Origin: Bosea sp. PAMC 26642
GTDB lineage: Bacteria; Pseudomonadota; Alphaproteobacteria; Rhizobiales; Beijerinckiaceae
Reading direction: 5' to 3'
Length of the DNA stretch: 64,000 bases
NCBI RefSeq assembly: GCF_001562255.1
Contig: NZ_CP014301.1
Location: 3,286,001-3,350,000, forward strand
Shown here one piece after another: positions 12,006 through 43,784 of the stretch; position 1 is the stretch's first letter; each line of letters opens with the position of its first letter. The notes under the pieces were generated by a model, which saw only the letters and a list, made by a program, of their open reading frames with translations, was not told the origin of the DNA and made no database searches. The position numbers and the translations under genes are program-made.

Positions 12006-12038
12006 CAAATTCCTATATGACCTTAATAGATGAATTGA
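12006..12038. promoter_or_regulatory. Candidate LysR operator/promoter element, copy 2
   Basis: Matches copy 1 at 22 of 32 positions (TCAAATT, CTAT, AAT and ATGAATT blocks in the same order and spacing). It lies exactly 77 bases from the start of the binding-protein gene, as copy 1 does from the aldehyde dehydrogenase. Its end overlaps a perfect inverted repeat, GATGAATT-G-AATTCATC, at 12030-12046. Confidence 0.55.
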
Positions 12039-12046
12039 ATTCATCC

Positions 12047-13079: not shown

Positions 13080-13108
13080 CGCCAAAGCAGCCTTATATAT
13101 TTCGTCAT

Positions 13109-13795: not shown

Positions 13796-13814
13796 GGCTC
13801 AATCCATCTCTTGG

Positions 13815-14267
13815 CTAGGCTGGATCATCGAGGTTCGGGGAACGCTTGGCGGCTCGGCGCAGACGAGCCTTTGCGGCACGTTCGTCCCAGGCACGAAGCG
13901 ACCAGAGCGAGTCTATCGTCATGAGCTTGCGGCGTTCCCAGGCGCCGGGAACATACTGTAGGATACGATAGGAGCCGTAAGGCTGCCATTCGACGTACAA
14001 AACGAGCTTCTGGCGGTAGCGGATGGCAAGTTCGCCGCCGAGGTCTTTCGACGAGGGAAAATATCCCCCGCGATCGGGCTTATTGGTTTTTTCAGCTTCC
14101 GATAGCTGCTTGTAACTCGCGACTACGATAGAGAACTCATCGTATTTTACGGATTTGAGGGTCGTTCCACCGATCATGGTATATTTCCCATTGATCTGAG
14201 TGTACGAGTCAGCTTGCTCGGCGAGGTGCTGGACCCACTGCTCCTTTGATGGCTTGAATGACAACAT
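13815..14267 (-). CDS. Hypothetical protein (about 150 aa)
   Basis: An unrecognised basic protein. I chose the ATG at MLSFKPSKEQWVQHL because it begins coherent protein-like sequence; the open frame runs about 37 codons further upstream through AT-rich, cysteine-containing sequence that looks non-coding. The C-terminus is rich in Arg/Ala (AWDERAAKARLRRAAKR). It probably heads the short operon with the two paralogs downstream. No function can be proposed. Confidence 0.5.
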   Translation of the reverse strand: MLSFKPSKEQWVQHLAEQADSYTQINGKYTMIGGTTLKSVKYDEFSIVVASYKQLSEAEKTNKPDRGGYFPSSKDLGGELAIRYRQKLVLYVEWQPYGSYRILQYVPGAWERRKLMTIDSLWSLRAWDERAAKARLRRAAKRSPNLDDPA

Positions 14268-14613
14268 GCAGGCTCTCGTTTGCAGCAAAAGTGAACATAG
14301 TTGGTTCACATATTTCATTTGAAATAATATATTACGGCACCGGTCGGCTTCGGTGCAAATTGTATTATATATATGCAAATCTATATCGTTGGCATATCCG
14401 AGTAATATCTTATTAGAGCTGCCGGCTATGGGCTTGGATAACGCATATATTCAGATAGCGATTTTCAAACGCCCTTGGCGTCACGCCTTTCCGATATGCT
14501 TTCGAGTATCACGCGCGGCATAGCGACAGCCGGACAACCGATCACCTGCCAACCAACTACCAAGGCCCTTGAAGGGTAAAAGTGTTCGACCTGAAACATA
14601 CCTGTCGGCGGAG
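14268..14613. other. AT-rich intergenic region
   Basis: A 346-bp stretch with no supported gene. The portion 14290-14460 is strongly AT-rich (TATTATATATATG-type sequence) and is the likely promoter region of the minus-strand hypothetical genes. The portion near 14560-14613 follows the stop of the ATPase gene. Confidence 0.4.
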
Positions 14614-28926: not shown

Positions 28927-31119
28927 CTATGCAGTGACAGTTGGGGCTGGCTGACCGGATGCGACCGCTGCGCCGCCGCTCATTCCACTGCCTTCGTTGC
29001 CTCTGACAATGACGGTGTTGGAGGCAAATGGTACGCCGGCCTCGTTCAATCTGGCATATATGCGCTTAAGGGCCTGGCGCTGCAGATGTGTTGGATTGTT
29101 CGGCTTGGCCGTGAACTTGCACCGTATAACGATCGCGCCGTCCTGGATCTCTTGCACGCCCTGCATCTTGAGTGGCAGCAAGAATTCCGAGCCCAGTTCG
29201 GGATCTTCAAGCATCTCCTGACCAATCTTTTTGATCAGCTTACGTGCCTGTTCAATGTTTGCGCTGTGATCCAGCCGGAGGGAGAATTTCATAGTCGCCC
29301 AATCGCGCGAGAAATTCGTGGTGGATTGGATTTGCCCGAACGGTATTGTGTGGACCTGCCCGTTTTGATGCCTGAGCTGGACCGAGCGGAGGGTAATCTT
29401 CTCAACCGTGCCTTTCAGATTGCCGATATCGATGTATTCGCCGATCCGAAATGCATCGTCGGTCAGAAAGAAGACGCCAGATACGACATCCTTGACAAGT
29501 GCTTGGGAGCCAAACGAGATGGCAAGCCCGATGACCCCAAACCCTGCGAGGAACGGGCCTATCTGGACTCCCAGGCTTGCAAGCATCACTAGCGCCGTGA
29601 CGGCAACGACGCCGCCCAGCCCGACGCCCTTTAAGAGCGGCAGAACAGTCGCAAGCCGAGTCCGAACAGGCGCTTCGCTCCCATCCTCATCGATTGGAAT
29701 GCCGGAGCGAGCTTTTGGGGCATGCGCAGCGAAGTAGGTCGACAAGTATGTCCAGATGATCCAGCCTGTCACGAAAGCGGTGCCAGCAGCCAGCACGGCT
29801 TGTAGTGCTGCGACGGCAGCGGTGGACTGAATATCACTCAAATAATCTGACCAGACCAGTGCCAATACGCCGAAACTCGTCAGCCACATGACCCCAGTCG
29901 TCAAGTTGGATGCGACCGCTGCCAAGGCGAGTCTGGCCGGACTCGACCCGCTTCGGACAAGCGCCCGGGAGGTCAAGGTGGAAACGATCGCGCCGGCGCC
30001 AGCCGTCAGTATCGGCAGTATGACGACCAGCAGCTGAGTGAGTGTGCCGGGAGCGCCAAGCCGCGTGACGGTCGGAGAAACCGCGCCGATCCGGTTGACC
30101 GACCAGATAAAGACCGCGACGGCGATAAAGATCCAAGGCAAAGCTGACCCAGCGAGCCGGCGGAGCAGGCCGGGTTTTGACGCAGAACTAACGTCTCCTC
30201 GCGCCAGTGCTGCAATATCGTGCCTTCCGCCCCAAAACCACGATAGCCTCAGTGCCAAAACGATCGTGCTCGCGATAAGGAACCACCCTTCGAGAGAGAC
30301 ACGCTCGCCGCCCACCTCCTGGCTCAGCCGCACGGATTGCATGAGTATGGGCTGGATTAGCCCGTACGCCAGCAGCATTCGCCAGTGCCATTGGGCGTGC
30401 GGCAGCGGCAAAAGGCGACGCTGGGGAGCTTGAGGGGCGAGCAGGAATCGGCCAGCGATGATGTAGAGGCCGAAGAGGGCTAACGCGTCGAGAGCGCTTT
30501 GGGCGATCGAACGCGCGAGGTCGGCCTGTGGAAGTAATCCATCGAGCGCGAGGCGCCCGCTGGCCGCGAAAGCGGCAAGAGTGGCAATGTCGGGAGCAGC
30601 CGCTGCTGTCGCGGCCCACAGTCGAGAGATGAAATCACTAGTCGCTTCGTCCCTCGGGCGGCGAACGAGCGGCTTTACCACCATGCGCATCCCGGTCGCT
30701 ACAGCGCCCGCAATAGCAACGACCGCGATGATCAGCATTAGCGCGCTTCGGCCCGAGCCGTTTCGATTTTCAGCCCATGCTAGGTATGCCTTATCCAGTA
30801 CATCGCCGACTTGACGTACCCCGGTAAAGCCATTCCCAAGCCCCTGCCAGAAGGCCGTCCAGGGCGGCAACGGCCTCGACGGAGCAATTGTCTCACCGCG
30901 CGTATCAGGAGCAGATACTGCTTCGGTTCGGACGATGATATTTGATCCGTTTCGCGCGAGTTCATCTGCGAGACGTCCGATGCGGGCCGGATCATCGCTC
31001 GGCTGGACCACAATTGTCGTCTGCCGCACCTCGGCATCGGCCGATATCAAGGTCGCAACGTTGATAAGGATGACGCCTGCGAAGAGAGCACGCGCGCGCG
31101 ACGACAAAAGCATCACCAA
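28927..31119 (-). CDS. Large mechanosensitive ion channel, MscS family
   Basis: A 730-aa inner-membrane channel. It has an N-terminal signal-like segment and a long periplasmic/multi-helix region with about ten predicted membrane spans. The MscS core lies around residues 520-580 (GFGVIGLAISFGSQALVKDV, then FRIGEYIDIGNLKGTVE), followed by the cytoplasmic beta and C-terminal domains. The extra N-terminal helices place it with the larger MscS-like proteins rather than minimal MscS. It would gate on membrane tension during osmotic downshock. It stands alone, 120 bp from the chemoreceptor gene. Confidence 0.88.
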   Translation of the reverse strand: MVMLLSSRARALFAGVILINVATLISADAEVRQTTIVVQPSDDPARIGRLADELARNGSNIIVRTEAVSAPDTRGETIAPSRPLPPWTAFWQGLGNGFTGVRQVGDVLDKAYLAWAENRNGSGRSALMLIIAVVAIAGAVATGMRMVVKPLVRRPRDEATSDFISRLWAATAAAAPDIATLAAFAASGRLALDGLLPQADLARSIAQSALDALALFGLYIIAGRFLLAPQAPQRRLLPLPHAQWHWRMLLAYGLIQPILMQSVRLSQEVGGERVSLEGWFLIASTIVLALRLSWFWGGRHDIAALARGDVSSASKPGLLRRLAGSALPWIFIAVAVFIWSVNRIGAVSPTVTRLGAPGTLTQLLVVILPILTAGAGAIVSTLTSRALVRSGSSPARLALAAVASNLTTGVMWLTSFGVLALVWSDYLSDIQSTAAVAALQAVLAAGTAFVTGWIIWTYLSTYFAAHAPKARSGIPIDEDGSEAPVRTRLATVLPLLKGVGLGGVVAVTALVMLASLGVQIGPFLAGFGVIGLAISFGSQALVKDVVSGVFFLTDDAFRIGEYIDIGNLKGTVEKITLRSVQLRHQNGQVHTIPFGQIQSTTNFSRDWATMKFSLRLDHSANIEQARKLIKKIGQEMLEDPELGSEFLLPLKMQGVQEIQDGAIVIRCKFTAKPNNPTHLQRQALKRIYARLNEAGVPFASNTVIVRGNEGSGMSGGAAVASGQPAPTVTA

Positions 31120-31657
31120 CCCCGGTACGATCCCCCAAAATGAAGGCTTCGGGCGAAGCTAACGTGGGTCAAGGGGCATGACTAGATCAGCTTACATCTG
31201 GTAGTTCAGATCATGCGCCTTCAGCAGCCGACAGCCGCGCCGGCTTTCCATCAGTCGTGGGCGAAGGCAGGTCTGCTTTCTCACTTAAACTTCCGGAAGA
31301 AGCCAGTCCCGGCACGGCCGAAGTTCGGTCGTTCGCCTCACGGCAATCGACATACCCGGAAGCAGACGCTCCCAAGGGCCGCAATGGTCCAAAAACGTCG
31401 GTCGCTCGTGGCGAGTTTCGCCAGAACCGCCAGCCGTTCGCTCGGACGAGATGCGCAAAAGCCGTCCTCCCGCTCTGGGACGACATGCGCCAGCTTTCCT
31501 CGTTGGATGAGCCGGTCGCTGGTAAAAGGTCGTGTCCAAAACTATAGGAGACAGAACGGTTGGAACCCATCGAAGGGAACCCCCGGAACTGCGCACGTCA
31601 GCCTTTGTGAAGGAGAGTGAGCGGGCCGGGCCTAATGCTCCGACCTTTGGATATCCG
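31120..31657. other. Intergenic region before the island cargo genes
   Basis: A 538-bp stretch with several overlapping open frames on both strands but none with a convincing start, ribosome site or protein-like sequence. It separates the chromosomal-looking mscS gene from the island genes and could contain the left boundary of that insertion. I saw no copy of the tRNA-Ser 3' end here. Confidence 0.4.
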
Positions 31658-32098
31658 ATGACCTTGAAGACCCCTCCGGGCGGCGAACCGCGCCCGAACG
31701 ATGCCGAACTCGAGATGTACGCCCGCGCCTACCGGCTGCGTGCGGAGGCCGACACCTTCTACCTGCGTTGGCAGCTGCATACCGCCCACGCGATGCTGCT
31801 CGAACATGATCCGACCCGGATCCATACCGAGCATGGCCTCAACGGCCGACAGATCGGCGAGGGTGCGCGGATCGCGGCGCGCCGCTTCGCGCTGCTTCTG
31901 GGCGAGCCGCCGGCGTTCTCCGAGCCGCTGCTGCGCCTCAAAATCGCATGTTATGAGGCTATGATCATCGACGCCGACGAGCTCAAGCGTTCGCGCGCGG
32001 TGGCAATGATCGAGGCCGCCATCCGGCGCGACGCGCAGGACCTCGGCATCGTTCTCGACGAAGGCCCCGTCATGCCCGATGAAGGCGGCTGGCACTGA
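31658..32098 (+). CDS. Hypothetical protein (about 146 aa) preceding the exonuclease-like gene
   Basis: An unrecognised, mostly helical protein (AELEMYARAYRLRAEADTFY, then HTAHAMLLEHDPTRIHTEHG). I chose the ATG at MTLKTPPGGEPRPND; an upstream in-frame start at 31532 would add 42 residues of unconvincing sequence. It ends 11 bases before the exonuclease-like gene, so the two are probably co-transcribed and may work together. No domain recognised. Confidence 0.6.
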   Translation: MTLKTPPGGEPRPNDAELEMYARAYRLRAEADTFYLRWQLHTAHAMLLEHDPTRIHTEHGLNGRQIGEGARIAARRFALLLGEPPAFSEPLLRLKIACYEAMIIDADELKRSRAVAMIEAAIRRDAQDLGIVLDEGPVMPDEGGWH

Positions 32099-32109
32099 GG
32101 ACGGCGACC

Positions 32110-33525
32110 ATGTCCTTCATCTTCTACGACCTCGAAACCTCCGGCCTCGCCCCGCAATGGGATGTGCCGCTGCAGGCCGCCTTGATCCACGCCGATGCCG
32201 ATCTGAAGATCCAGGCAGAACTCTCGTTCCGGGCGCGGCTGCCGGCGCACATCGTGCCTTCGCCCGGCGCGCTTCTCGTCACAGGCGTCACGCCAGCGAT
32301 GCTCGAGCAGGCACCGCTCTCGGTCGGGGACATGCTCGGCCTCATCGCCCGGGCCTTCAACGAATGGGCCCCGGCAACGATCGTGACCTACAACGGTCTG
32401 CGCTTCGACGAGGAGGTGTTGCGGCATGCCTTCTTCACGCACCTGCTGCCGCCGTACTCCAGCCAGGGCCCCGGGCTGAAGCGGGCCGACCTTCTGGTCA
32501 TGTTGCGCGCGGTTCGGTTGCTTGAACCAAACGCTGTGACGATCCCGATCGGTGTCAACGGCAAGCCGTCGATGAAGCTCGGCGACGTCTGCCGCGCGAA
32601 CGGCATCGCCCTCCACGAGGAGGATGCTCATGACGCGCTCGCCGACACCCGCGCCACCCTGGCGCTGTTCCGGCATCTTCGGGAGGTGGCCCCGTCCACC
32701 ATCGCGCGGATGCTGGAGAATACGCACAAGTCCGGACCCGCAGCGTTGCTGGCCGGTGACGAGCCCATCCTGCTCGGCGGCATGAACGCGATGGTGCCGG
32801 TCATCGGCATCGCGCCGAGCCCGCGCAACGCCGCAGCCTGGGCCGTGGCCGACCTCTCGGTCGACCCTGCAACCTATCTCGACGGCTCGTTGGAGGAGAT
32901 CGCCGCGCTGCTGACCGCCAAAGGACCGCGCGCGATCCGGACGGTCCGGACCAATGCCCAGCCGATCCTCGTCGGATGGGAGCGTGGGGCGCATGCCCTG
33001 CCGGCTGATCGCCTTGATGACGCCGTCTACCGCCAGCGCGCGCGACAGGTCCGTGATCACGCAGGCTTCCGCAAGAACCTGCTGCAGGCGCTTGCCAACC
33101 AATATGCCGATGCCGAGCCGTCGCCCTGGCCGGAAGCTACGTTGTACAGCGGTGGCTTCATCAGCGACGAGCAGATGCGCCTGTCCCGCCGTTGGCGCGA
33201 AATCGACTGGGTTGAGCGCCCGGCCTTCGCCGATCAGCTGTTCACGGACGCCCGGCTGCGCGCCTTCTCCAATCGGCTCTGCTTCCTTGAGGCCGCCGAG
33301 CACCTCTCGCCGGCGGCCTGGGCGAAAAGCCGGGACTGGCTGCGCCATCGTCTCCAGACCGAGGACGATGTGCCGTGGCTGACGCTGTCGAAAGCGCTGA
33401 AGGAGATCGACGGTCTTCGCGCTCAAACCGAAGCTGGCGACGACGAACGCCTGCGTCAGATCGCGGAGATCGAGCGCTGGCTCGTGGGGCGCCAGCAGGA
33501 ACTCGCGCGGGCATCCGCCGCTTAG
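32110..33525 (+). CDS. DEDDh-family 3'-5' exonuclease, exonuclease I (SbcB)-like
   Basis: A 471-aa nuclease. The DnaQ-like catalytic residues are all visible: Asp7 and Glu9 in FYDLETSG, Asp100 in YNGLRFDEE, and His174 with Asp179 in EEDAHDALADTRAT. The segments after the exonuclease domain follow the SbcB plan, including a DLSVDPATYLDGS block. It would degrade single-stranded DNA 3' to 5', or another nucleic acid. Chromosomal exonuclease I is uncommon in this group, and its place among island cargo suggests a role in the element or in defence. A strong terminator follows. Confidence 0.8.
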   Translation: MSFIFYDLETSGLAPQWDVPLQAALIHADADLKIQAELSFRARLPAHIVPSPGALLVTGVTPAMLEQAPLSVGDMLGLIARAFNEWAPATIVTYNGLRFDEEVLRHAFFTHLLPPYSSQGPGLKRADLLVMLRAVRLLEPNAVTIPIGVNGKPSMKLGDVCRANGIALHEEDAHDALADTRATLALFRHLREVAPSTIARMLENTHKSGPAALLAGDEPILLGGMNAMVPVIGIAPSPRNAAAWAVADLSVDPATYLDGSLEEIAALLTAKGPRAIRTVRTNAQPILVGWERGAHALPADRLDDAVYRQRARQVRDHAGFRKNLLQALANQYADAEPSPWPEATLYSGGFISDEQMRLSRRWREIDWVERPAFADQLFTDARLRAFSNRLCFLEAAEHLSPAAWAKSRDWLRHRLQTEDDVPWLTLSKALKEIDGLRAQTEAGDDERLRQIAEIERWLVGRQQELARASAA

Positions 33526-33549
33526 CCCCATCACAGGACGGACAAGGAC

Positions 33550-33581
33550 GAAGGCCCGCGCGCTCCCGCTCGCGGGCCTTC
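33550..33581 (+). terminator. Rho-independent-like terminator after the exonuclease gene
   Basis: An 11-bp perfect stem, GAAGGCCCGCG with its complement around a 10-base loop, 25 bases after the stop. It is followed by a T-containing CGTTCGTTCC rather than a clean U tract, so termination strength is uncertain. Confidence 0.6.
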
Positions 33582-33649
33582 GTTCGTTCCAGGGGAAAGG
33601 AGGTCAGCGCTGCCAACTGGGCAGAACCCCGCACAAAAAGGGACAGACC

Positions 33650-34612
33650 ATGACGGATACCAAGACCAAGAGCAGCCTCGCTGATGTGAAAGCAGAGGTG
33701 TGGAACGGCGCCGTTGTCGACGAGCTCGATGCCATCGCGCAGCAGCGGCCCTGGGGAGATGGCGACGCCGAAGGCTACAGCCGCGTGCTGCAGGGGCTTC
33801 CCTCGCTTCTCGACGTCGCCGCCCGCGCCCGCTACCACGCGTGCCAGGTCGAACGCTTCCTCGATCTCGCCAGCCGGACGCAGGACCACGGGCTGATCCA
33901 GGGCCGCTTGCAGTGGCTGGTCGCGTTGACGATGCTGAACCACGCCGCGACGCTCGCGGTCGCGCTGCTGCCGACCAGCGACACCGTCGACGACTGGATC
34001 CGCGGCGACGCCGGCGAGAGCGTCGTCGAGGCGGCGAAGCGGCATCAGAAGACGGCGACTGCCGAACTGGCTCGTTCTGCCTTCGGCCTGGATACGCCCA
34101 CGGTGAATGCGGCCCTGGCGTCGCCGCGGGCGTTCATCGCCGGAGCCGACCGTCTCCTCGCCGTGACGAACGCACTGGCGCCCAGCAGGGACAGTGACGA
34201 CTACGCCGCTGGGGTTCACGGGCTCGAGCGTGGCAAAACGCTGACCGACTACGTCAGCGATCACCTCGACCTCGAGTACCGCCTCGATTCGGTCCGGCTC
34301 CATCTGCGCCGGGCCGACAACTTCGCCGCAGAACTCGAGGATGGCGAGATCAGCCCAGACCAGCGTGATCGCCTCGGCCGGGCTCAGGCCGGGGCGATGA
34401 TCCTCGCGCTCGCCGATCTCGGCCGGATCGGGCTCTGGCCCGCCCGCGATCCTGGCGACCATCGGGTCAAGGCCGAGGCGCGTGAGCTGATGCGGGCGCG
34501 GCAGTACCCGGATCGGCAGAAGGCCATCGTCGAACTCGCGTTCGTGATCGGGCAACAGATGGAGGCCGGGCTTGGGACGCTCCGCGCGCGCCTGAGCAAG
34601 GCCGAGGTCTGA
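33650..34612 (+). CDS. Hypothetical protein, island paralog family member 1
   Basis: A 320-aa soluble helical protein with no recognised domain. It is the first of three consecutive related genes. The relationship shows best near the C-terminus: a hydrophobic helix ending IGLWP, a short acidic segment, then a Lys/Arg-rich helix (RVKAEARELMRARQ). A degenerate version of the same unit occurs in the first half (VALLPTSDTVDDW). It starts MTDT, as the second member starts MTDE. Function unknown. Confidence 0.65.
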   Translation: MTDTKTKSSLADVKAEVWNGAVVDELDAIAQQRPWGDGDAEGYSRVLQGLPSLLDVAARARYHACQVERFLDLASRTQDHGLIQGRLQWLVALTMLNHAATLAVALLPTSDTVDDWIRGDAGESVVEAAKRHQKTATAELARSAFGLDTPTVNAALASPRAFIAGADRLLAVTNALAPSRDSDDYAAGVHGLERGKTLTDYVSDHLDLEYRLDSVRLHLRRADNFAAELEDGEISPDQRDRLGRAQAGAMILALADLGRIGLWPARDPGDHRVKAEARELMRARQYPDRQKAIVELAFVIGQQMEAGLGTLRARLSKAEV

Positions 34613-34963
34613 CGGGTTGCGAAGCGGTGCCCCGATCTCGGTAGCCAACAACACGACAACAGGAAGCGCCCAGGACGGCAAACCGACTCAGGACCTCGCA
34701 AGAGGCCGCCAGGAAGCCCTCAGGCTTGCAAATCGCTGGCTTCCGCCGGCGGTTGGAAAAGGTCGGTTGGCGCCAGGTGGCCTCCAGGACGGCGCTCCCA
34801 CCACAATCCTGACCGGGCACCGAGCCAGGACGGCGACAACACGACAACGGGACGGTCAGAACCGCGTCAGACCAAATGAAGGCGCTCCCACGGGGGCGCC
34901 TTTCTCATGTCCGGAGATCGAAAGGTGCAGCGACTTGGCTGTTACCCCACACGGAAGTTTTAC
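34613..34963. other. Intergenic region between family members 1 and 2
   Basis: This 351-bp stretch has no supported gene. It contains two copies of the 13-mer ACAACACGACAAC (34647-34659 and 34836-34848) and several CCAGGACGG words. A terminator hairpin follows at 34879, and then a leader segment shared with the next gene of the family. Confidence 0.5.
34879..34903 (+). terminator. Hairpin terminator upstream of family member 2
   Basis: An AAGGCGCTCCC arm faces GGGGGCGCCTT across a short loop, followed by TTTCTC. It has the same architecture and flanking sequence as the hairpin at 35957, and both sit just before a family gene. It lies about 265 bp after the stop of member 1, so it could also act as an attenuator in the leader of member 2. 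Confidence 0.6.
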
Positions 34964-35914
34964 ATGACCGACGAAACGCATTCTGTTCCTCTCGACGACG
35001 AGCCTCTCACCCAGGACGTCCACCCGATCACCGAGCCGCTCGGGGCGCTGGTGGCGATTCTGCCGCATGATCCGCTGATCGCAGACCTGATCGCGCTTCG
35101 CCGCGCCACGCCCGATCTGGCAGAGGCTGCCCGCTCCGCGACGTTCTTCGAGGCGATGGTCAAGGTGAGCCCGCTCGGCGTCGGCTTCGGGCGGCTCTTC
35201 GGATTGGCCCAGGCCGGCCTGCAACTGCTGGCGGCAGCCAACGAGGCGATCGTCGCGATCTGGCCGGTGGACGACAACGAAATCGCCAGGGCGAAACTCT
35301 CGCTTCACCCCGATCCCGAAACCCAGCGCAACCTGCGCGGTGACCGATATCTTCGCGTGGTGCTCGCGGCCCTCCATCCGGGCTATCTGCGTGTCTCGGC
35401 GCCGGCGAAGCCGACCCCGGATGATCGCGCGCTGGTGTTCTGGCCCGTGGGCCACGAGGTCGGTGCCAGCGACGCGGCAACGCTTCCGACAGGAGATGCC
35501 TACGGCAAGGCCGAATGCGAGCGCCTAGCGATGTTCGCCTTCAGCGGTCCCAAGGTGGCGCCGCTGATCGAGCGAGCCCGCGAGCTTCTGGCGGCGTCCG
35601 ACCAGCTTCGGGGTCAGGCGATGCGGCTGGGGCCGGATGCACTCGAACTGCGGCTGGCGTCGGAGGGCGCGCTGATCTCGGCGTATTCGCTCCTCGCGCA
35701 GGCCGCCCTCTGGCCGAGCCGGGACGATGCCGACGACATCGCCGCGAAGGTCGACTTGATCACGCTCGTCAACAGCCGCGTCAGCTCGGACGATCCTACC
35801 CACATGATCGCCACCGTGATGCTCGCCTATGAGCGCTCGCGCGAGGCGGTACGGCTGGGCAGCGCGCCCTTCCGGTGGCGCCACCCGGACGTCGCCTGGA
35901 GCGACATCGTCTGA
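34964..35914 (+). CDS. Hypothetical protein, island paralog family member 2
   Basis: A 316-aa protein of the same unrecognised family as its neighbours. It clearly contains two copies of one structural unit: a hydrophobic helix ending AIWP near residue 100 and ALWP near residue 265, each followed by an acidic linker and a K-containing helix. The ATG (MTDETHS) overlaps the stop of a possible 10-codon leader ORF (TTG start at 34936, TGA overlapping the ATG), suggesting coupled translation. The next terminator begins about 40 bases after the stop. Confidence 0.65.
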   Translation: MTDETHSVPLDDEPLTQDVHPITEPLGALVAILPHDPLIADLIALRRATPDLAEAARSATFFEAMVKVSPLGVGFGRLFGLAQAGLQLLAAANEAIVAIWPVDDNEIARAKLSLHPDPETQRNLRGDRYLRVVLAALHPGYLRVSAPAKPTPDDRALVFWPVGHEVGASDAATLPTGDAYGKAECERLAMFAFSGPKVAPLIERARELLAASDQLRGQAMRLGPDALELRLASEGALISAYSLLAQAALWPSRDDADDIAAKVDLITLVNSRVSSDDPTHMIATVMLAYERSREAVRLGSAPFRWRHPDVAWSDIV

Positions 35915-35956
35915 CGGGGAAAATTTCCCTCAGATCGGCGTCCCGATCAGTCCTGG

Positions 35957-35982
35957 AGGCGCCCCGCGCGGGGCGCCTTTCT
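35957..35982 (+). terminator. Hairpin terminator between family members 2 and 3
   Basis: A perfect 8-bp stem, GGCGCCCC-GCGC-GGGGCGCC, followed by TTTCTT. The sequence after it, about 40 bases, closely matches that after the hairpin at 34879, showing that the whole intergenic unit was duplicated with the gene. Confidence 0.75.
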
Positions 35983-36013
35983 TGTGTCCGGGAAAATCGC
36001 AGGGAGCAGCGAC

Positions 36014-37039
36014 ATGGCTGTCACCCACGTAAAGGATCACTCCGTGACCAACGAGAACAACAAGGGCGTGCCGGCGCCCAGCAAGACCGGCGCCATCGAA
36101 AATCCCGGGCATCAGATCCCTGGCGATCCCATCGCCATGATGACCGGCAGCATCGGAGACGACCCCAGCCTCAGTGAGCTCGCCGCCTTTCGCAACGGCG
36201 CGCCGGATCTCAAGTTCGCGGCTCGCAAAGCCAAAGAGTTCCTGGACGAGTCGATGCGGATCAGGCTGGCAAGCACTGATATCGAAGCAGCGCATCGCGT
36301 CGCCGCCGGCCTCATGCTGGTCGGACTCTCCTTCGTCGCCACGGTCTGCATCTGGCCGTCGGACAGCCTCGACGAGGTCGAGGCCAAGCTCGCGCTGGTC
36401 AAGGTGAACAGGGTTCATGGCGACGACCAGGAAGACGACTACGCCCCCATGCTCGAACCCGATACCGCGCGGCGGATCAGGGTCCGGCGCGCCGCCTTCA
36501 ACGTCGGCGAGCTGATGGTGCCGCCGCAGCCCGCCGGGCCGGCATCGATCGATCGCGGGCTCGCGACCTGGCCGCTGCAGGGCCTCGACCTGACGCTGCT
36601 CCTGCCGCAGCGCGGTGGGGTGCCGGTGTTCGCCGACCAGCAGCCGAATATCTGGTCCGCCCTCCTGACGACGCCGCCAGATCTCGATCGGCTCGCGGAT
36701 CGTGTCGAGCGCCTGCTCGCGACGGCCGACCGGCTGTTCCTGCTTGCCGCGCGCCCCGGCGACAACCATGCCGAGCTGCGCCAGGCTGCCGAGGGCGCGC
36801 AGATCATGGCGTACCTGAATGCCGCGCAGGTCGCGATCTGGCCGGTCGAACGCGGCTCGGCCGGGGTCAAGGCGAAGTGCCGGATGGCGAAGGCGATCGA
36901 CGATCGCGCCTGCCGTTCAGATCCGCTCCATATGCAGGCGGCCGTCCGCCACATCTTCGAGGAGTCCACCTGGTTGACCAGGCTCCTCGGGGCCGAGCGG
37001 ATGGCCATCAAGATGCCAACCTGGACGGAGATCGTATAG
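36014..37039 (+). CDS. Hypothetical protein, island paralog family member 3
   Basis: A 341-aa member of the family. It has the same two units: CIWP near residue 110 and AIWP near residue 275, each followed by an acidic linker and a basic helix (VEAKLALVKVNR; VKAKCRMAKAI). The C-terminal DPLHMQAAVRHIFEES matches DPTHMIATVMLAYERS of member 2. The ATG has an AGGGAG ribosome site; a GTG at 36044 (VTNENN) aligns better with the starts of members 1 and 2 and is a real alternative. Function unknown. Confidence 0.65.
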   Translation: MAVTHVKDHSVTNENNKGVPAPSKTGAIENPGHQIPGDPIAMMTGSIGDDPSLSELAAFRNGAPDLKFAARKAKEFLDESMRIRLASTDIEAAHRVAAGLMLVGLSFVATVCIWPSDSLDEVEAKLALVKVNRVHGDDQEDDYAPMLEPDTARRIRVRRAAFNVGELMVPPQPAGPASIDRGLATWPLQGLDLTLLLPQRGGVPVFADQQPNIWSALLTTPPDLDRLADRVERLLATADRLFLLAARPGDNHAELRQAAEGAQIMAYLNAAQVAIWPVERGSAGVKAKCRMAKAIDDRACRSDPLHMQAAVRHIFEESTWLTRLLGAERMAIKMPTWTEIV

Positions 37040-37096
37040 TCCCGTCGTCGGCGCTCAAACGGGTTCCATCAACCGACGAGCACATCACATCAAGAG

Positions 37097-37122
37097 GGCG
37101 GCGCCGCGAGGTGCCGCCTTTT
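37097..37122 (+). terminator. Hairpin terminator after family member 3
   Basis: A GGCGGCGCC-GCGA-GGTGCCGCC stem (one wobble pair) followed by TTTT, about 60 bases after the stop and before the AAA+ gene. It is a canonical factor-independent terminator, so the AAA+ gene probably has its own promoter. Confidence 0.75.
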
Positions 37123-37203
37123 CGCATTCAATCGGGGCTCGCGGAGGGCCGGACCGGCCACCCCGCGGGACACTCAGGTTTCGCGGCGCCGCGAACCAAC
37201 TCG

Positions 37204-38376
37204 ATGACCAAAGACGAATACGACTTCCAGTTCGCTGACCCGGCACTTAAGGCACGCGTTGTTAGGGCGAAGCGGGCAAAAAGGCAGAAGACTCTCAGTG
37301 AGACGCCGGCCCCGTCGCCAGACGCCGTTCGGCCTCCGTACCAAATCGCTCTGTTCGACGCCGATGCGCTTGCTGCTCGGCTCGGTACGTCTCCAGGCTA
37401 CCACGTTGATCCAAGCGAACATGTGGCCGACGACAACGGGCTCGACCGACAGGTCAAGCTCTGGGCTCGTCTTCACAACGATCCACGTGGACCGTGGCGT
37501 AACCAAATCCGTCCTGACGTTGCCATGATCGAGCGCGTCGCCGCGCTCGTCGTCACTGGTCCTCACTTCCGTAACGTTATCGGCTGGATCGTTCGGGCTA
37601 TGCAGCTCGCTCTGATCTGCGGCCGCCCCCTGCGTCTCGATCCCTGCTGCCTGCTCGGTGATGCCGGCATCGGCAAGACGTTCTTCGCAACAGAGCTCTC
37701 CCGAGCGCTGGGCGTGCGTTCCGAGTTACTCGCCATCAACGTCATGACCGACCGTGGGTCGATGCTCACCGGACTCACGCCGGTATGGCGGGGGTCACGT
37801 CCTGGCCGTGTCGCGCAGGCGCTGATCGACGGCGACAGCGCCGCCCCCCTCTTCATCCTCGACGAGATCGACAAGCCATCACCGATCAACCCCGCAGAGG
37901 ACCCGCTCCAGGCCCTTCACTCGCTCCTGGAACGCCAGAACGCCCAGGCGTTCACCGACGAGTTCTTGGAGTTTCCGATCCGGGCCGATGAAATCCTCTG
38001 GGTCACAACGGCCAACAGCCTGAGCCCGATGCCGCCTTCGCTGGTCGACCGCATGATCGTCTTCACGATCGATCCGGGTGAGGCAGACAGGCTGACCATC
38101 CAGGAATCGATCTTCGACCGCGCCAATGCGGAGGTCGCAGACTCTACCTTCATCCGACCGGCGCAGAGCCTGTTTCGCCTCGCCCGCGACTACAACGCCC
38201 GGACGATGACGCGGCTTTGGCCGGCCGCGATGGCGATCGCCTGCGCGGACGGACGCCGGGAATTACGTCAGCGCGACATCACCGATGCCGCGGCGCTGGT
38301 ATCCGGCCAAGGCCAGACAAAGCGGTCGATCGGCTTCATGGCCGCACAGCGCATAGCTGATGTCGGACACCGATGA
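37204..38376 (+). CDS. Stand-alone Lon-type AAA+ ATPase without protease domain
   Basis: A 390-aa AAA+ protein whose core resembles the Lon ATPase domain rather than MoxR. Walker A is GDAGIGKT at 152-159 and Walker B LFILDEID at 216-223. These are followed by the Lon-like DPLQALHSLLERQN and TDEFLEFPI segments, sensor-1 Asn271 in TTANSLSPMPPS and an arginine finger near 283. There is no Ser-Lys protease domain and no Lon N-domain; instead a 110-residue unique N-terminus. It would remodel a partner protein, plausibly one of the neighbouring family proteins or the downstream 281-aa protein. Confidence 0.78.
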   Translation: MTKDEYDFQFADPALKARVVRAKRAKRQKTLSETPAPSPDAVRPPYQIALFDADALAARLGTSPGYHVDPSEHVADDNGLDRQVKLWARLHNDPRGPWRNQIRPDVAMIERVAALVVTGPHFRNVIGWIVRAMQLALICGRPLRLDPCCLLGDAGIGKTFFATELSRALGVRSELLAINVMTDRGSMLTGLTPVWRGSRPGRVAQALIDGDSAAPLFILDEIDKPSPINPAEDPLQALHSLLERQNAQAFTDEFLEFPIRADEILWVTTANSLSPMPPSLVDRMIVFTIDPGEADRLTIQESIFDRANAEVADSTFIRPAQSLFRLARDYNARTMTRLWPAAMAIACADGRRELRQRDITDAAALVSGQGQTKRSIGFMAAQRIADVGHR

Positions 38377-38507
38377 TCGCCTGTTCGCATCGAGTACACG
38401 ACGGGACGTACCCACCGCAGAAAGTTCGAAAGAGGGAACGACGGAATGAAGGCTCTGGGGAGAGTACCCCCGGAAACTTCGCTCAGGCACTAAACGAAAG
38501 TCAGATT

Positions 38508-39353
38508 ATGAAGATCAAGCCCCGGCCTGGCCAGATCGGCCGTACCATTCAGCCGCCCAATAGTGCCGCTGCCGTCACGCGATGGTATCCAACGCAATGG
38601 GAGCGGATCGGCGGCAAGGCGCTGAAACCTCTGCCCGACGATGCATTCATGCAGCCGGGCTTCACCACGCGCTATCGGCCGGGCATTCTCGTCCATGCCT
38701 ACGTCGCCGCCTGCGGTGACATCAGTTCGCCTGACTTCGGCACTGGCCTGCTCGGCGCCGCCCGCGACCTCCAGATGCCCCTGTACAAGGTCGCCAGCAC
38801 GAAATGCGCCGACCCTCGTCGACGCATCGATGGGCTCAACCGCGATCGGTATGGCGTCAGGCGTCAGCTAAAGGAGGGCTCCGTCTCGGATCTCGGGTTC
38901 AATACCTGGGCGCTGCAGCAGATCTCCCCCAATCGCAGTCCGCTCGCCGGAGCGCCGATCAAACTGGAAGCGCGTTCGATCAGCGTTATCCTGCCGGCGG
39001 GCCTTGAGAACCACCAGTTCGAGAAGCGCCTCCACGTCGCGATGAAGAACGCGAGCCTGAATTCCTGGCTGGCATCGCCGGCGGGCCAAACTCACTGCCG
39101 TATGCTGGGACTTGATCCGGGCAACCATCAGCGGTTCAGCGACTACCGCTTCGGCCAGCCGACCAGGCTCTCGCCAAGCGACGAGATCTACATCTTCCGT
39201 CCTATCGGCGAGGACGCCGATCGCCTGCTGATGATCATCGAGACAATCATTCAACAGTGGGTCATCGGCACGGCTCCCAGAGCTCCAACGAACTGGACGA
39301 GCCGAAGCCAGCATGCTGCTCGGCGGTCTGGAGCGTTCGCCCATCCGATCTAA
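38508..39353 (+). CDS. Hypothetical protein following the AAA+ gene
   Basis: A 281-aa unrecognised basic protein. I chose MKIKPRPGQIGR as start because sequence before it (open back to 38373) overlaps the AAA+ gene. It has no membrane or signal segment. The central region (MKNASLNSWLASPAGQTHCR, then FRPIGEDADRLLMIIETI) looks folded, and the C-terminus is basic and His/Arg-rich. Its position 130 bp after the Lon-type ATPase suggests it may be the client or effector of that ATPase, as inference. Confidence 0.6.
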   Translation: MKIKPRPGQIGRTIQPPNSAAAVTRWYPTQWERIGGKALKPLPDDAFMQPGFTTRYRPGILVHAYVAACGDISSPDFGTGLLGAARDLQMPLYKVASTKCADPRRRIDGLNRDRYGVRRQLKEGSVSDLGFNTWALQQISPNRSPLAGAPIKLEARSISVILPAGLENHQFEKRLHVAMKNASLNSWLASPAGQTHCRMLGLDPGNHQRFSDYRFGQPTRLSPSDEIYIFRPIGEDADRLLMIIETIIQQWVIGTAPRAPTNWTSRSQHAARRSGAFAHPI

Positions 39354-39433
39354 AAACCCGTCTTCGCTCGGGCTGAGCCCGTTGCGATGGCGCAGGAGCG
39401 CCCATTCGAAATCGTGCGTCCGCTGCGTCCGCG

Positions 39434-39450
39434 AAAGTTCCCAGACTCGG
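39434..39450. repeat. 17-bp direct repeat, left copy
   Basis: AAAGTTCCCAGACTCGG, identical to the copy at 41969-41985. The two copies bracket a 2.5-kb segment containing the RraA-like and 608-aa genes. Confidence 0.8.
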
Positions 39451-39528
39451 CCCTGTCGCGGTTCTGCGTCGTGGGCCAACCTCGTCGCCGAACGGCAACA
39501 TGCCGCCTGGAGATGACGGGAGACTTCA

Positions 39529-40047
39529 ATGCAGGGCGAGATAACTCCCAGGCGCGCCACCACCCTCCAAATCTGCGCGGCTTTTGGGCCTCATGCCCGC
39601 ATCATGCCGCTGATGCAGTCTTACGCATCTTCAACCCCGTTCAGCGGACCTGCGACAATTTTCCTTCCTCGCACCGGCCGCGCGATGCTCAATACAGTGC
39701 TGGGGAGAGACTGCGCGCATCATGTCGTCATTATTGACGGACGTAACCTCGGCACGAATGGCATCGTCGGCCCGGAGGAGGCCGAAAGCGCGGCTAAAGG
39801 GAAGTGCCGCGCGCTCATCGTGTTTGGCAATGTCTATGGCGTTGGCAAGCTCGCCGACAAAAAACTCCCGATCCTTGCGTCGCAGAACTCCCCTCGGGTG
39901 CTGTCGGCAATCGGTGGACGGGTCGATACCGCCTATCTCGACTGCGACGCGGGCCTGATCACCAACGAATTCTACATCACGGGTGACGATGATGGCATCG
40001 TCGCGATCCGAACAGACAAGATGCAGGAACATTTCCCAGTGCCATAA
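39529..40047 (+). CDS. RraA/HMG-aldolase-fold protein, apparently degenerate
   Basis: A 172-aa protein matching the RraA-like fold: a GPATIFL strand, the VVIIDGRN loop, an ALIVFG strand and a C-terminal ITGDDDGIVAI. In active aldolases and RraA the segment after the ALIV-G strand is C-RD-DEL with a conserved Arg-Asp pair. Here it reads NVYGVGKL, so both residues are lost, and the N-terminal helices are short. It may be a repurposed or decaying copy. No neighbouring aromatic-degradation genes are present. Confidence 0.6.
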   Translation: MQGEITPRRATTLQICAAFGPHARIMPLMQSYASSTPFSGPATIFLPRTGRAMLNTVLGRDCAHHVVIIDGRNLGTNGIVGPEEAESAAKGKCRALIVFGNVYGVGKLADKKLPILASQNSPRVLSAIGGRVDTAYLDCDAGLITNEFYITGDDDGIVAIRTDKMQEHFPVP

Positions 40048-40131
40048 GGGTGCAGCGAAAGCTCCGAACCGCGAGTTGACCTTACTGCCGTCCGTCGGGC
40101 AAAATTCAGAGAGTTGATTCGGCCATTTTAA

Positions 40132-41958
40132 TTGGCCCGAACGCGATCAATCCGCGGTTATCGGAAAGTATTTATCTCGAGGTTTTCGTCGTTGGAAGTT
40201 CCCGAGTTCAGGCCGCTTGTTCCATTATTCGATGAGACACGGCGGCTCGACGACGGAACTGGCCTTATAGTTAACGTAAGCTGGTTATCCCGGAAAGTTC
40301 AAGCCGCTATACGCACTGGCGATGGCGCTGATTATGTGACGCGCAGGTTGGTGTGCGCCAAGGTGCTCCTCAAAGGCATCAGCGGTCCGATAGTCGATTC
40401 TTACATCGCGTACGCCGACCAGCTTAGTCGTGAGGACTGCGATGTTCCCCTGATCGTTGTCTTTGAAGGGAGGAGGCCTCCTGAAAGCGATGATCCATCA
40501 GAATATGAAATACTTGATGGCAAAGCGCGTGTCGTCCGGGCGCGAGGGCTGAATATCTTACTACCTGTCATTATGATCTCAAAAGCCAGAGCAAAGCTCT
40601 GGGGTGCCGCTCCTTGGGCAAGAAAGTTGGGTGAGCGCCTTGATGCCCCCCCTCATCGCATCACTGGCAAACACTTTCAGCGCTCGGGGCGGGCAACACT
40701 GCCTTTTGGCAGCAGGCCTGGCGATGCCATCATGCCCAAGAGGGTTTCACAGGCCAGGCTTTCCGGCTCCAAAGTGACCAATCCGTTCGCCTACACGATG
40801 GTTTTGTCGGACAGCGGGAAAGTACGTGCCGAGGCGCATAGACGGCTTGAAGTTGCGCGCAACAGCGGCGGCAAAAGTCGAAATTTGGCAACCGGTTTGG
40901 CCGATGCGTTTCCCGATCCGCAAAAATCGGGCCCTTCAACTCCGCGGCATCAGGAAATCTGCTTACAAATTCTCTTTTGCAAGCTCGTCGATTTTCTCCG
41001 CAAGGACGTAGCAGATCGCGACGGAAAAATATTCGATCAACTGACGCTGCTTCGGGATTGGTCTAGGACACAGCAAATCCGCGACCTTATGGCGATTTCG
41101 CTGCGATTGCCCGAGCCAAAGAGTAAAACAGATCGGGCCTATAGAAATTCGGAAGTAGCGGCTGAACTCGATAAATTGGCCATAGCGTCGCGCGCGGCCT
41201 TTCGCAACGCAGGTGCGTCATGGACAAAACCTCTATCCGAAAGGCTCCTGCTTTTCGGCGATGGTCTGACGCCGAGGCCAGTAGTCGATGCTGATAATCA
41301 TAGCGCGTTACGTGAGCATGCTCTCAAATTGCTTTCATGGTCTTTCCTAGCATTGCTGCGCGCCAAACACTGGCGGCAAGGTGCAATCTCAATTGGCCGC
41401 CTCAATTCACACGGCGAATTCCACAAAGCGGATAAGTTAGACCCGACAAATGAGACCTGCGATTCAGCTAGGCTCGCGCACGAGGCGGTTGGCTCGGTCA
41501 CATTTCAGGACCTCACGGATTTAGGCATCGAGCAACTTCTTATCCTTGCCATGCATGGGCGTTTTAACCCGTTCCTGATCTGGCACGATATGCGCTGGGC
41601 GGTGCCACTGGGGCATTGGATGATGGCGGTTGCCGATCTTGATGCCGATCGACCAAGCCATGTCACCGTCTGGATGGCGGAATTCTGCCTGGAGCAGCGG
41701 CGACGCAATTTCGGCGAAATCAACCATTTCTCCGGCCCTTCAACACTTGTAATGCATTGGCTGTACTGGATAGGCGCGAAATTCCCAGATTTTGCGGCCT
41801 CGATCGCCGAAATCTGCGAGCGTACCATTTCTGGTTTCCCGCATTTGTCTGGGCGGGCAATCCGATCCGTGACGCCTCAAGGCGGGGGGCCTTCATTGGT
41901 GTCTGAACCCGTCGCTCCCTGGGAAGACATGGCACTTCAGGCAACGCTTTTCGCCTGA
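40132..41958 (+). CDS. Hypothetical protein (608 aa), island orphan
   Basis: A large unrecognised protein starting at TTG; no ATG is well placed. It is soluble, rich in basic residues in the N-terminal third, and has an Arg/Trp-rich C-terminal half (LLRAKHWRQGAISIGRLNSH, then FNPFLIWHDMRWAVPLGHWM). Base composition is lower in GC than its neighbours and codon use is less biased, consistent with recent acquisition. It lies between the two copies of a 17-bp direct repeat. No catalytic motif is evident. Defence or phage-related roles are possible but unsupported. Confidence 0.6.
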   Translation: MARTRSIRGYRKVFISRFSSLEVPEFRPLVPLFDETRRLDDGTGLIVNVSWLSRKVQAAIRTGDGADYVTRRLVCAKVLLKGISGPIVDSYIAYADQLSREDCDVPLIVVFEGRRPPESDDPSEYEILDGKARVVRARGLNILLPVIMISKARAKLWGAAPWARKLGERLDAPPHRITGKHFQRSGRATLPFGSRPGDAIMPKRVSQARLSGSKVTNPFAYTMVLSDSGKVRAEAHRRLEVARNSGGKSRNLATGLADAFPDPQKSGPSTPRHQEICLQILFCKLVDFLRKDVADRDGKIFDQLTLLRDWSRTQQIRDLMAISLRLPEPKSKTDRAYRNSEVAAELDKLAIASRAAFRNAGASWTKPLSERLLLFGDGLTPRPVVDADNHSALREHALKLLSWSFLALLRAKHWRQGAISIGRLNSHGEFHKADKLDPTNETCDSARLAHEAVGSVTFQDLTDLGIEQLLILAMHGRFNPFLIWHDMRWAVPLGHWMMAVADLDADRPSHVTVWMAEFCLEQRRRNFGEINHFSGPSTLVMHWLYWIGAKFPDFAASIAEICERTISGFPHLSGRAIRSVTPQGGGPSLVSEPVAPWEDMALQATLFA

Positions 41959-41968
41959 CCGGATCAGA

Positions 41969-41985
41969 AAAGTTCCCAGACTCGG
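41969..41985. repeat. 17-bp direct repeat, right copy
   Basis: AAAGTTCCCAGACTCGG, located 10 bases after the 608-aa gene and identical to 39434-39450. It may reflect an insertion or recombination that brought in the segment between the copies. Confidence 0.8.
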
Positions 41986-42008
41986 GGGTATCGAACCGGC
42001 CGACCAGC

Positions 42009-42296
42009 ATGATTCTGGAAGCCTCCATGACGGAGGTTTCTGTGGCCGTGCAACGCGACATTCGCGATAGTCGCTCTCTCGATCGATCGACCGAAGAGGG
42101 ATTGTCGGCGCTGACGCAAGATCGTCTCGAGGCGGCCATGCTCTACCTCGCAGAATGCATCGTTGCGGCGGGGCCAGCCTACGCTCCATTCCTCCAGAAG
42201 CTCGAAGATGACCTCGCGACGATGATGGCAGGGCGCGATCCTATTTCTCGCGCTTACGCCATCATTGCCAAGGCTAAAGCGAAGCAGGGGGCTTGA
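42009..42296 (+). CDS. Small hypothetical protein (95 aa)
   Basis: A short helical protein (LTQDRLEAAMLYLAECIVAA, then LQKLEDDLATMMAGRDP). A second ATG at 42027 would give 89 aa. Its 3' end overlaps the integrase 3' end by 23 bases on the opposite strand. The protein-like sequence makes it plausible, but no family is recognised. Confidence 0.45.
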   Translation: MILEASMTEVSVAVQRDIRDSRSLDRSTEEGLSALTQDRLEAAMLYLAECIVAAGPAYAPFLQKLEDDLATMMAGRDPISRAYAIIAKAKAKQGA

Positions 42297-43584
42297 AGGC
42301 AATCCGCTGCAGCCAGTTTCTTTTTTGAACCAGGCTAGGTCCATCGCCATATCGCGGCCTCTGGTATTTATGCCCCATCAACACCGCCATAACTTTCTCC
42401 GGCGCACCCACGGCGGTCAGCCGATCTTCGAAGGTATGCCTGAGCGAATACAGGGTGTGGTTTGGCGTCGGCCGAAGCTTCGCATTCGTCAGAAATTTGT
42501 TAACCAGCGCCGACAAGCCGGCATTCTTGTCACGATACCGCGGAAAGCCATTGGGCTGCAGCTTCATCGCAGCCAGGGCCGCTCCAACGAGGGGGATCTG
42601 CCGAAAGGACTGCGCCGTCTTCAGTTTGCGGCCATCGGGCCATATGTGGACGTAAGGAATCTGATGGTCCAGCACGATCGTATCGGCGGTCAAATTCACG
42701 GCCTCGGAGATTCTCAGACCGGTGTCGGCCATGAGATAGATGACGCGCCGCGCTTCCTCGTTCAGCTCGGCAAACGCACCATCTTCCAGGATTCGCGTCT
42801 GCACGAATTCGGCGGCGAAAGCGGAGCGCGACGCCGTCGTTTCCCCCTCGATCCGAAGCTCGCTAAAAAGCGGCGGAAGTTCAAGCCGGTGGTGCGTGTT
42901 GATGGTCCGGTACATCTTGTTGACCTGTCCGATCGACTTGTTGGCCGTACCAATCTCAATGCCTTCGTCCAGCACGCGCTCCTGCCACCACGCCTGAAAA
43001 TCAAGCGCGTCGCCTCTGGTCAACTCGGACAGGGTCTTGTCGCCCACGACATCGAAGACGCTCTCGGCGGCGAGCCGTTTGGCGTTCCGCCAACGTCGCT
43101 TCTGTTCCTCAGACATGCCCGACAAGGATGCTCGCTGGATCCTCTCGTACTCCGTGAAAAGATCTTTCAATCGAAACGCTGGCTTCTCCACGAGGCCAAG
43201 CACAGCGTCCGCGGCTTTCGACTCGGGCGCCAGGCCGCGCGTCGTCACGGCTTCGACGCGCGCGACGATCTGGGACGTAGGGCGGGAGAGCAGTTCCCGT
43301 GCCGGGACGTAGTCGAACCCGAGCGCTCGAGCGAGATCTCGGGCTGCCTCATACCGTTCGCGGGCGTTATCGCTCTGACCGAGGTACAGAGCCTTCCAAT
43401 AGGCTTGGTGCTCCGCGTCGATCTTCGCGACTGCGCGACGCGCGACGATGCCGCGAGGATCGTCGGCGATTCGCACCTTCGTCGTTTGCCGCACGATGAC
43501 GCGTCGGTCGAGCGCAGCGAACGCCGTAGGGACCCTTCTGACATAATGCCAAAAGCCATCGCGCCGGCCGAGATAGTCGCGCAT
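42274..43584 (-). CDS. Tyrosine-type site-specific integrase
   Basis: A 436-aa phage/ICE-type recombinase. The catalytic set is visible: Arg291 in ADTGLRISEAV, Arg382 and His383 in YSLRHTFEDR, His405 in LMGHKYQRP and the nucleophile Tyr412 in RPRYGDG. The N-terminal 150 residues form the arm- and core-binding region. It is encoded about 110 bp from the 3' end of tRNA-Ser(CGA) on the same strand, the standard arrangement when an element integrates into the tRNA 3' end. It presumably moved the cargo lying to its left. Confidence 0.92.
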   Translation of the reverse strand: MRDYLGRRDGFWHYVRRVPTAFAALDRRVIVRQTTKVRIADDPRGIVARRAVAKIDAEHQAYWKALYLGQSDNARERYEAARDLARALGFDYVPARELLSRPTSQIVARVEAVTTRGLAPESKAADAVLGLVEKPAFRLKDLFTEYERIQRASLSGMSEEQKRRWRNAKRLAAESVFDVVGDKTLSELTRGDALDFQAWWQERVLDEGIEIGTANKSIGQVNKMYRTINTHHRLELPPLFSELRIEGETTASRSAFAAEFVQTRILEDGAFAELNEEARRVIYLMADTGLRISEAVNLTADTIVLDHQIPYVHIWPDGRKLKTAQSFRQIPLVGAALAAMKLQPNGFPRYRDKNAGLSALVNKFLTNAKLRPTPNHTLYSLRHTFEDRLTAVGAPEKVMAVLMGHKYQRPRYGDGPSLVQKRNWLQRIAFKPPASL

Positions 43585-43694: not shown

Positions 43695-43784
43695 TGGCGG
43701 ACAGGGAGGGATTTGAACCCCCGATACCCTTGCGGGTATGCCGCATTTCGAGTGCGGTGCATTCAACCACTCTGCCACCTGTCC
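43695..43784 (-). tRNA. tRNA-Ser (anticodon CGA)
   Basis: A 90-nt class II tRNA. Acceptor arms GGACAGG and CCTGTCC pair, the discriminator is G, and CCA is encoded. The anticodon loop reads ACTCGAAA, and the long variable arm is ACCCGC-AAG-GGGT-like, typical of serine tRNAs. It abuts the integrase gene and is the likely attachment site of the island. Confidence 0.95.

Follow-up and report, generated by a model that had tools for sequence, protein, structure and literature searches.

The window, a 64,000 nucleotide stretch of the Bosea sp. PAMC 26642 genome (contig NZ_CP014301.1; the genome has 5.5 Mb in two contigs), carries at positions 31658-39353 seven genes that are arranged as A-B-c-de-de-F-G and are all encoded on the + strand, according to the list of open reading frames (ORFs) and the gene map. 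In Bosea, A to G make up a conserved module whose genes share one strand, and they almost certainly form one system. The lower-case letters c (gene C) and de (genes D and E) denote two subtypes of one multiplied gene.

Layout of the module

The genes of the module, the leader elements in front of the c/de genes and the nearby integration functions are located as follows:

31658-32098, + strand: gene A, 146 amino acids, no family; its stop lies 11 nucleotides ahead of B; conserved in 20 loci
32110-33525, + strand: gene B, predicted ExoI/SbcB-like DEDDh exonuclease, 471 amino acids (Pfam, PADLOC, NCBIfam, alignment, solved-structure profile)
33595-33639, + strand: leader before C, hairpin and ACCCC (E-value 1.7e-6, member of the training set)
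33650-34612, + strand: gene C, c-type paralog, 320 amino acids
34913-34957, + strand: leader before D (E-value 4.9e-7, member of the training set)
34964-35914, + strand: gene D, de-type paralog, 316 amino acids from the likely start; the ORF opens at 34907
35992-36036, + strand: leader before E (E-value 9.8e-7, member of the training set)
36044-37039, + strand: gene E, de-type paralog, 331 amino acids from the likely GTG start; the ORF opens at 35984
37204-38376, + strand: gene F, AAA+ ATPase with a Lon-like AAA core and no protease domain, 390 amino acids
38508-39353, + strand: gene G, 281 amino acids, possible divergent GIY-YIG/T5orf172-like protein; the ORF opens at 38373
42274-43584, - strand: tyrosine integrase of the island (Pfam Phage_integrase 9e-10; PHROG integrase 4e-23)
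43695-43784, - strand: transfer RNA (tRNA) gene tRNA-Ser(CGA), likely integration site

Starts at 34964 for D and at 38508 for G are more likely than the longer ones. For E we infer the start at 36044, because the conserved leader overlaps the longer start; the homologue in locus L016 was also used for this.

The initial annotation of this DNA had proposed six or seven genes next to an integrase, among them a DEDDh nuclease, three paralogs, a protease-less Lon-type AAA+ ATPase and an unknown 281-amino-acid protein. All ORFs that it named were found on the + strand, the integrase does adjoin the tRNA-Ser gene, and the four protein descriptions are borne out by the results given below. The number of genes is seven, with the 146-amino-acid gene A belonging to the set. 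The separate terminators that it mentioned correspond to GC hairpins with short T runs that can be seen by eye (at about 33550-33590, 34881-34905, 35955-35985 and 37098-37123); none of these was passed on the + strand by a terminator scan.

Recurrence and distribution

The window genes were compared by tblastn with 20 neighbourhoods, gene maps were drawn, and the same set of 149 genomes of the bacterial family was searched for F, B, G, c and de. The genome of the window contains three further copies of the module, one of them without A and B. Besides Lon, the search with F returned three further near-full-length copies from this genome; all full-length F relatives in it belong to the four loci of the module, and a fifth match is Lon. 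Three of the maps read:

L016: A-B-c-de-F-G
L017: de-F-G and a partial c, without A and B
L018: A-B-c-F-G-c-de

A scan of the genome collection with gene A gave 17 loci (12 from Bosea, three from one Methylobacterium metagenome-assembled genome, one from Rhizobiales and one from Hyphomicrobiales), of which three duplicate loci already found. Altogether, A, c or de was found at 21 distinct loci, and in each the module genes lie on one strand. The usual order is A-B-(c/de)n-F-G or A-B-F-c-de-G, with one to six c and de copies per locus. L046, L053 and L054 are cut at contig ends, and L045 is partial.

The initial annotation had asked for the same set to co-occur at different sites, and such recurrence was found. 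Genes c and de are each present in four of the 149 genomes, and always in module loci or in one partial copy; they are not scattered. The four genomes are the same for both, and all four also carry B and G, with the genes together in loci. B occurs in eight genomes and is thus no ordinary chromosomal gene of most relatives; four of these eight are without c and de, and two of the four (G002 and G075) have relatives of F and G near B. G was detected in 17 genomes. With stricter thresholds, G was found at the order level in three of 397 genomes, two of them from this family, and at the class level in the window's own genome only (1/289). G is nearly confined to one bacterial family.

The exonuclease B and its small partner A

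B matches the Pfam families RNase_T (7e-11) and Exonuc_X-T_C (1e-14), and its profile match to a solved Exonuclease I structure, 4rg8, reaches 1e-67. Residues D7, E9, D100, H174 and D179, which we take to be the DEDDh set, are intact and invariant in all seven aligned sequences. Judged by sequence, B is an ExoI (SbcB) homologue over its full length, with an RNase_T-type DEDDh domain and the ExoI C-terminal domain, and it is predicted to be an exonuclease. B differs from Exonuclease I in being an island gene that is paired with A and not a housekeeping gene, and its score of 178.5 bits is below the 260 bits that NCBIfam sets as equivalog cut-off for exodeoxyribonuclease I. Wherever A is present (20 loci), B follows at a distance of -1 to 13 nucleotides (for L045, L046, L053 and L054 as read from map coordinates). 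A itself had no match in Pfam, PADLOC or NCBIfam.

Two known arrangements resemble B. The PADLOC model RTasSbcB, an SbcB-like nuclease listed under the DRT reverse-transcriptase systems, matches residues 3-454 of B with an E-value of 1e-73. A DRT system with SbcB would have a reverse transcriptase gene next to the nuclease; in the window's genome, none lies close to the module at its four sites. The second arrangement is a triplet of helix-turn-helix (HTH), ImmA/IrrE peptidase and exonuclease genes on alphaproteobacterial plasmids. Its exonuclease is about 30% identical to B, and ThiF genes adjoin in four of five inspected cases; according to the annotation the partners are others, and no A, c, de or G was found by name (only B was searched by sequence). 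Triplets of this kind with an ExoI-like exonuclease lie next to ThiF genes on plasmids from rhizobia and Methylocystis (L036, L037, L039 and L040), with multiubiquitin-domain genes annotated in L036 and L040. They represent a further partnership in which this family of exonucleases recurs.

The ATPase F and protein G

F contains an AAA domain (3e-9), and Walker A and B motifs are visible in its alignment. The top NCBIfam model is Lon (9e-23), which covers residues 149-289 only. Since the Lon model matches just the AAA core and the C-terminal Ser-Lys protease domain of Lon proteases is not matched, F has no protease domain.

G is present as described, with no family match in the library scans. 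An AlphaFold2 model of G has a mean predicted local distance difference test score (pLDDT) of 86 and a predicted template modelling score (pTM) of 0.84. An alignment of 24 G sequences has nine invariant columns, including Y65, K94, R106 and E226, and these residues recall the GIY-YIG/T5orf172 pattern Y...KIG.T...R...E. Compared with 13 T5orf172 domains (PF10544) from the same bacterial family, G gave a hhalign P-value of 3.2e-4, with only 22 columns aligned locally; seven unrelated profiles gave 0.05-0.75, and in 200 column shuffles the score was never reached. The likeness lies in the aligned KxGxT...R...L block and the four invariant residues named above, and we lean slightly towards G being a GIY-YIG-like protein.

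Three side observations concern G and F. In L026, L027 and L097, a shorter G homologue (245 amino acids) adjoins an ORF of 113 amino acids, and in L026 and L027 this homologue is a second G by the exonuclease VII-type set. A lone G homologue (L128:14851-15714) is located next to repABC on a Bosea plasmid, with no F or nuclease adjoining by annotation. Genes annotated as members of the GIY-YIG nuclease family (L129:5262-6350 and L130:12628-13818) occur within a few kb of F-like AAA genes on plasmids of Variovorax and Polaromonas.

The c/de paralogs and their leader

D and E match each other by BLASTP (1e-24). C joins them by profile only: pairwise matches of C to D and E are unconvincing (E-values 0.87 and 0.002), and the C profile aligns with the de profile over 296 columns (hhalign probability 99.1%, E-value 8.5e-19). 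C, D and E are thus one family with two subtypes, and no convincing family match was obtained for any of them in Pfam, PADLOC, NCBIfam or PHROGs.

The gaps ahead of many c/de genes contain a GC hairpin that is followed by a smaller hairpin and ACCC. Such a hairpin with ACC(C/A), counted at a score of at least 4 and within 80 nucleotides upstream, precedes 18 of 30 c, 22 of 26 de, 10 of 18 F, 10 of 19 A, three of 17 G and none of 20 B genes, and 25 of 412 other genes. The alignment of 48 c/de leaders is a biased sample, as these were picked for the hairpin. Less biased is a test on held-out loci, in which a model trained on 20 leaders from 10 loci was applied to 11 further ones with a total of 210 kb and 33 c/de genes. 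It returned 25 matches for the 33 genes, all with E-values of at most 2.7e-4, and no further match up to 0.1. The matches end 5-15 nucleotides ahead of the called c/de start in 23 cases; the remaining two lie in L054 and overlap with the called start by eight nucleotides. In 22 outgroup stretches (374 kb), which include loci of the exonuclease VII type, the model gave no match up to an E-value of 1. There was likewise no match up to 1 to any Rfam covariance model in window positions 31000-42500.

A model that used the sequence only found 21 matches in the 11 held-out loci, and these show compensatory pairing. The expected placement of the six-pair helix ranks first of 399, with 92% paired, and there are 10 double-change cells compared to 2.2 in shuffles, of which 0/500 reach 10. 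Two of the five measures are flat (2 vs 1.5 for pairs with both sides changed and 8 vs 7.7 for pair types), and the shuffles ignore the kinship by descent among c/de genes. Read most simply, the element is a hairpin in the RNA of the 5′ leader; a role at the DNA level is possible.

Exonuclease swap and cassette shuffling

In genus g13 of the same family, probably Methylobacterium, F and G are accompanied by the large subunit of exonuclease VII (ExoVII) in place of ExoI. XseA was recognised by Pfam PF02601 in L031 (1e-49) and L024 (2e-44), and an XseB-like ORF of 75-76 amino acids in both loci matches PF02609 below the cut-off (E-values 0.015 and 5e-4). In the maps, L024, L026, L027, L029 and L031 combine F and G with both XseA and XseB; L093 has G-XseA-XseB without F. 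Outside L031 and L024 the Xse names come from profiles built on five loci, including L026, L027 and L029 themselves, so that L093 is the only independent XseA match. Conversely, no ExoVII was seen in the maps of the Bosea-type module, where the ExoI-like B takes its place. In L102, F and G are accompanied by an ExoI-like B (Pfam 5e-16 and 9e-13) and two small ORFs. In L029 and L031, three adjacent ORFs of 125-134 amino acids lie between F and G.

Because ExoVII replaces ExoI beside F-G, the shared partner would be an exonuclease for single-stranded DNA (ssDNA). The common theme, F-G together with a predicted enzyme for ssDNA ends, is the strongest clue to the mechanism.

The cassettes of the module are also shuffled. 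Between the window and L016 the identity (tblastn) is 94% for A, 87% for B, 78% for C and 86% for E, but only 35% for F and 43% for G; the first two dozen residues of F are still nearly identical in the alignment. Across 105 pairs of 15 loci, from which the window was left out, the identities of A and B correlate with 0.69, and those of all remaining pairs that can be formed from A, B, F and G with 0.18-0.38.

Islands and neighbouring genes

Many copies of the module have an integrase next to them. It is above the Pfam cut-off in the window and in L016, L017, L042 and L051; matches in L055, L043 and L058 are below the integrase cut-off, and the gene tested at L044 gave no match. According to the maps, L020 and L022 have genes similar to an integrase, and L019 has a 67-amino-acid piece at a contig end. 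An integrase next to a tRNA gene, as expected for an integrative island, is found in the window, L016 and L042. The 3′ end of the tRNA is present in a single copy in the window; a second copy was not found there, and the far end of the island may lie outside. Nearby tRNA genes are:

window: Ser
L016: Glu
L018: Val and Asp
L020 and L042: Leu
L043 and L058: Gly
L051: Arg
L057: Met
L045: Glu
L048: Cys, on the opposite side

None was found at L017, L019, L030, L044, L046, L050 and L052-L055.

The PADLOC scan of neighbours gave three strong matches, one weak match (L044) and none for six loci. Nine further or repeated neighbours were scanned with Pfam. The matches are:

L042: GajB-like helicase (PADLOC, strong); ThiF-JAB (Pfam)
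L048: LmuB/PtuA-like (PADLOC, strong)
L052: Ppl (PADLOC, strong)
L043: SAVED (Pfam)
L051: AAA_21 (Pfam)
L055: impB/mucB polymerase (Pfam)
L057: serine recombinase (Pfam)
L018: AAA_25 (Pfam)
L054: aromatic lyase (Pfam)
L045: LysR regulator (Pfam)
L016: no match (Pfam)

Possible functions of the module

The initial annotation had expected an uncharacterised defence or element-maintenance system. That the genes form a set stands, whereas the defence part draws on context only and has to be weighed against maintenance or transfer. We regard it as an evenly balanced possibility that the module is a mobile system on integrative islands which attacks incoming DNA via its ssDNA ends. This reading is inferred from the parts and from the context, namely some defence-type neighbours, integrases and tRNA sites. 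F, as an AAA+ ring, would together with G, a possible GIY-YIG-like nicking or DNA-binding protein, recognise and open a feature of foreign DNA, and B, aided by its small partner A, would digest the exposed 3′ ssDNA ends. The multiplied helical c/de proteins might be exchangeable recognition or immunity subunits that tune the F-G response. The expression of each copy might be set by its leader hairpin, which would allow copies to be gained and lost as self-contained units.

Several results weigh against this reading. With PADLOC-DB 2.0.0 and nine proteins, no two core genes match one system: A, c, de and G matched no model, F matched weakly (E-value 0.0097), and the strong matches come from B only. 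The best of these is a nuclease that PADLOC groups with reverse transcriptases; the genome's single RVT_1 match lies at C1:4464104 (4.46 Mb), far from the module loci at 0.85, 1.32, 3.32 and 5.13 Mb. The nuclease assignment of G is weak; G differs from GIY-YIG and T5orf172 proteins in having no relevant Pfam match across 24 members, and its model has no fold match in PDB or among viral models (BFVD). The neighbours scanned, with PADLOC one large neighbour per locus at 10 loci, are a chosen sample without control. In G061 and G128, the stretches read contain neither F nor G next to the relative of B. L017 is without A and B, and L022 consists of F-G and an integrase-like gene only; as both are incomplete, some parts are dispensable or these loci are remnants. 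Finally, a large MobA/MobL protein (L029:6728-9409, E-value 3e-13) and a sub-threshold relaxase match (L032:6604-9003, E-value 0.061) are each encoded immediately upstream of F, as would suit a role in transfer.

A role in upkeep or transfer of the element is the main rival, and we rate it as rather unlikely. Here the module would serve the island, for instance by processing the ssDNA strand of conjugation; F-G would have the integrase or DNA ends as its target, and ExoI or ExoVII would clear leftover ssDNA. Apart from the two genes upstream of F, the lone G homologue by repABC and the position of the integrase speak for this explanation: the integrase is convergent with G and adjoins it in L016, L017, L042 and L055, and probably likewise in L020, where a small ORF separates the two, and in L019 (the piece at the contig end). 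However, these adjoining integrases differ in length and Pfam make-up, an integrase was not verified at L018, and none was seen in the L030 contig. Number and sequence of the c/de genes vary widely as well, and a housekeeping role would not need such variation.

It has been reported that the DRT9 immune system makes toxic ssDNA which ExoI neutralises (PMC12483538). With this precedent, G or c/de might make or reveal toxic ssDNA or otherwise harm the cell, B (or ExoVII) and A would clear the product, and a phage that blocks the exonuclease would free the toxicity. The co-variation of A and B, apart from F and G, fits such a guarded toxin. We consider it improbable: the set contains no polymerase or reverse transcriptase, no reverse transcriptase lies near any copy in the window's genome, and L017 retains de-F-G without B.

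That unrelated genes are kept together only by co-travel on islands is disfavoured and very improbable: most copies are on islands and some loci are partial (L017, L045), but order and adjacency are fixed at different sites with different neighbours, most c/de genes share the leader, and relatives have the same F-G pair with another ssDNA exonuclease.

The attack on incoming DNA can be put in a more specific form, which we offer tentatively and hold to be less probable than the general one. The module would then belong to an undescribed class of mobile immune systems, found mainly in one bacterial family, with a fixed AAA+/G core, an interchangeable ExoI or ExoVII and an expandable array of helical paralogs. 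Each gene of the array would be a self-contained cassette headed by a conserved RNA hairpin, and specificities would be gained and lost by recombination. If true, this adds a system that none of the libraries searched names as a system, and shows a defence-type locus that is built from cassettes. Its logic would be testable: one ATPase core, two unrelated alternative ssDNA exonucleases and an array of paralogs that can expand and has an RNA leader in common. Defence, element upkeep and guarded toxin make different predictions for knock-outs, three in all.

Further observations in the window

The interval from G to the integrase contains up to three ORFs (39529-42296). As tblastn gave no match for them in the 20 neighbourhoods, they are outside the recurring set. 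The ORF at 39529-40044 has an RraA-like aldolase match (E-value 1.6e-9). The one at 40132-41955 (608 amino acids), located in a stretch of low GC content (about 0.55), had no match in Pfam, PADLOC, NCBIfam or PHROGs. Positions 12000-15000 of the window have a GC content of 0.48-0.54, compared to a background of about 0.65, and few coding calls, and might represent a second island.

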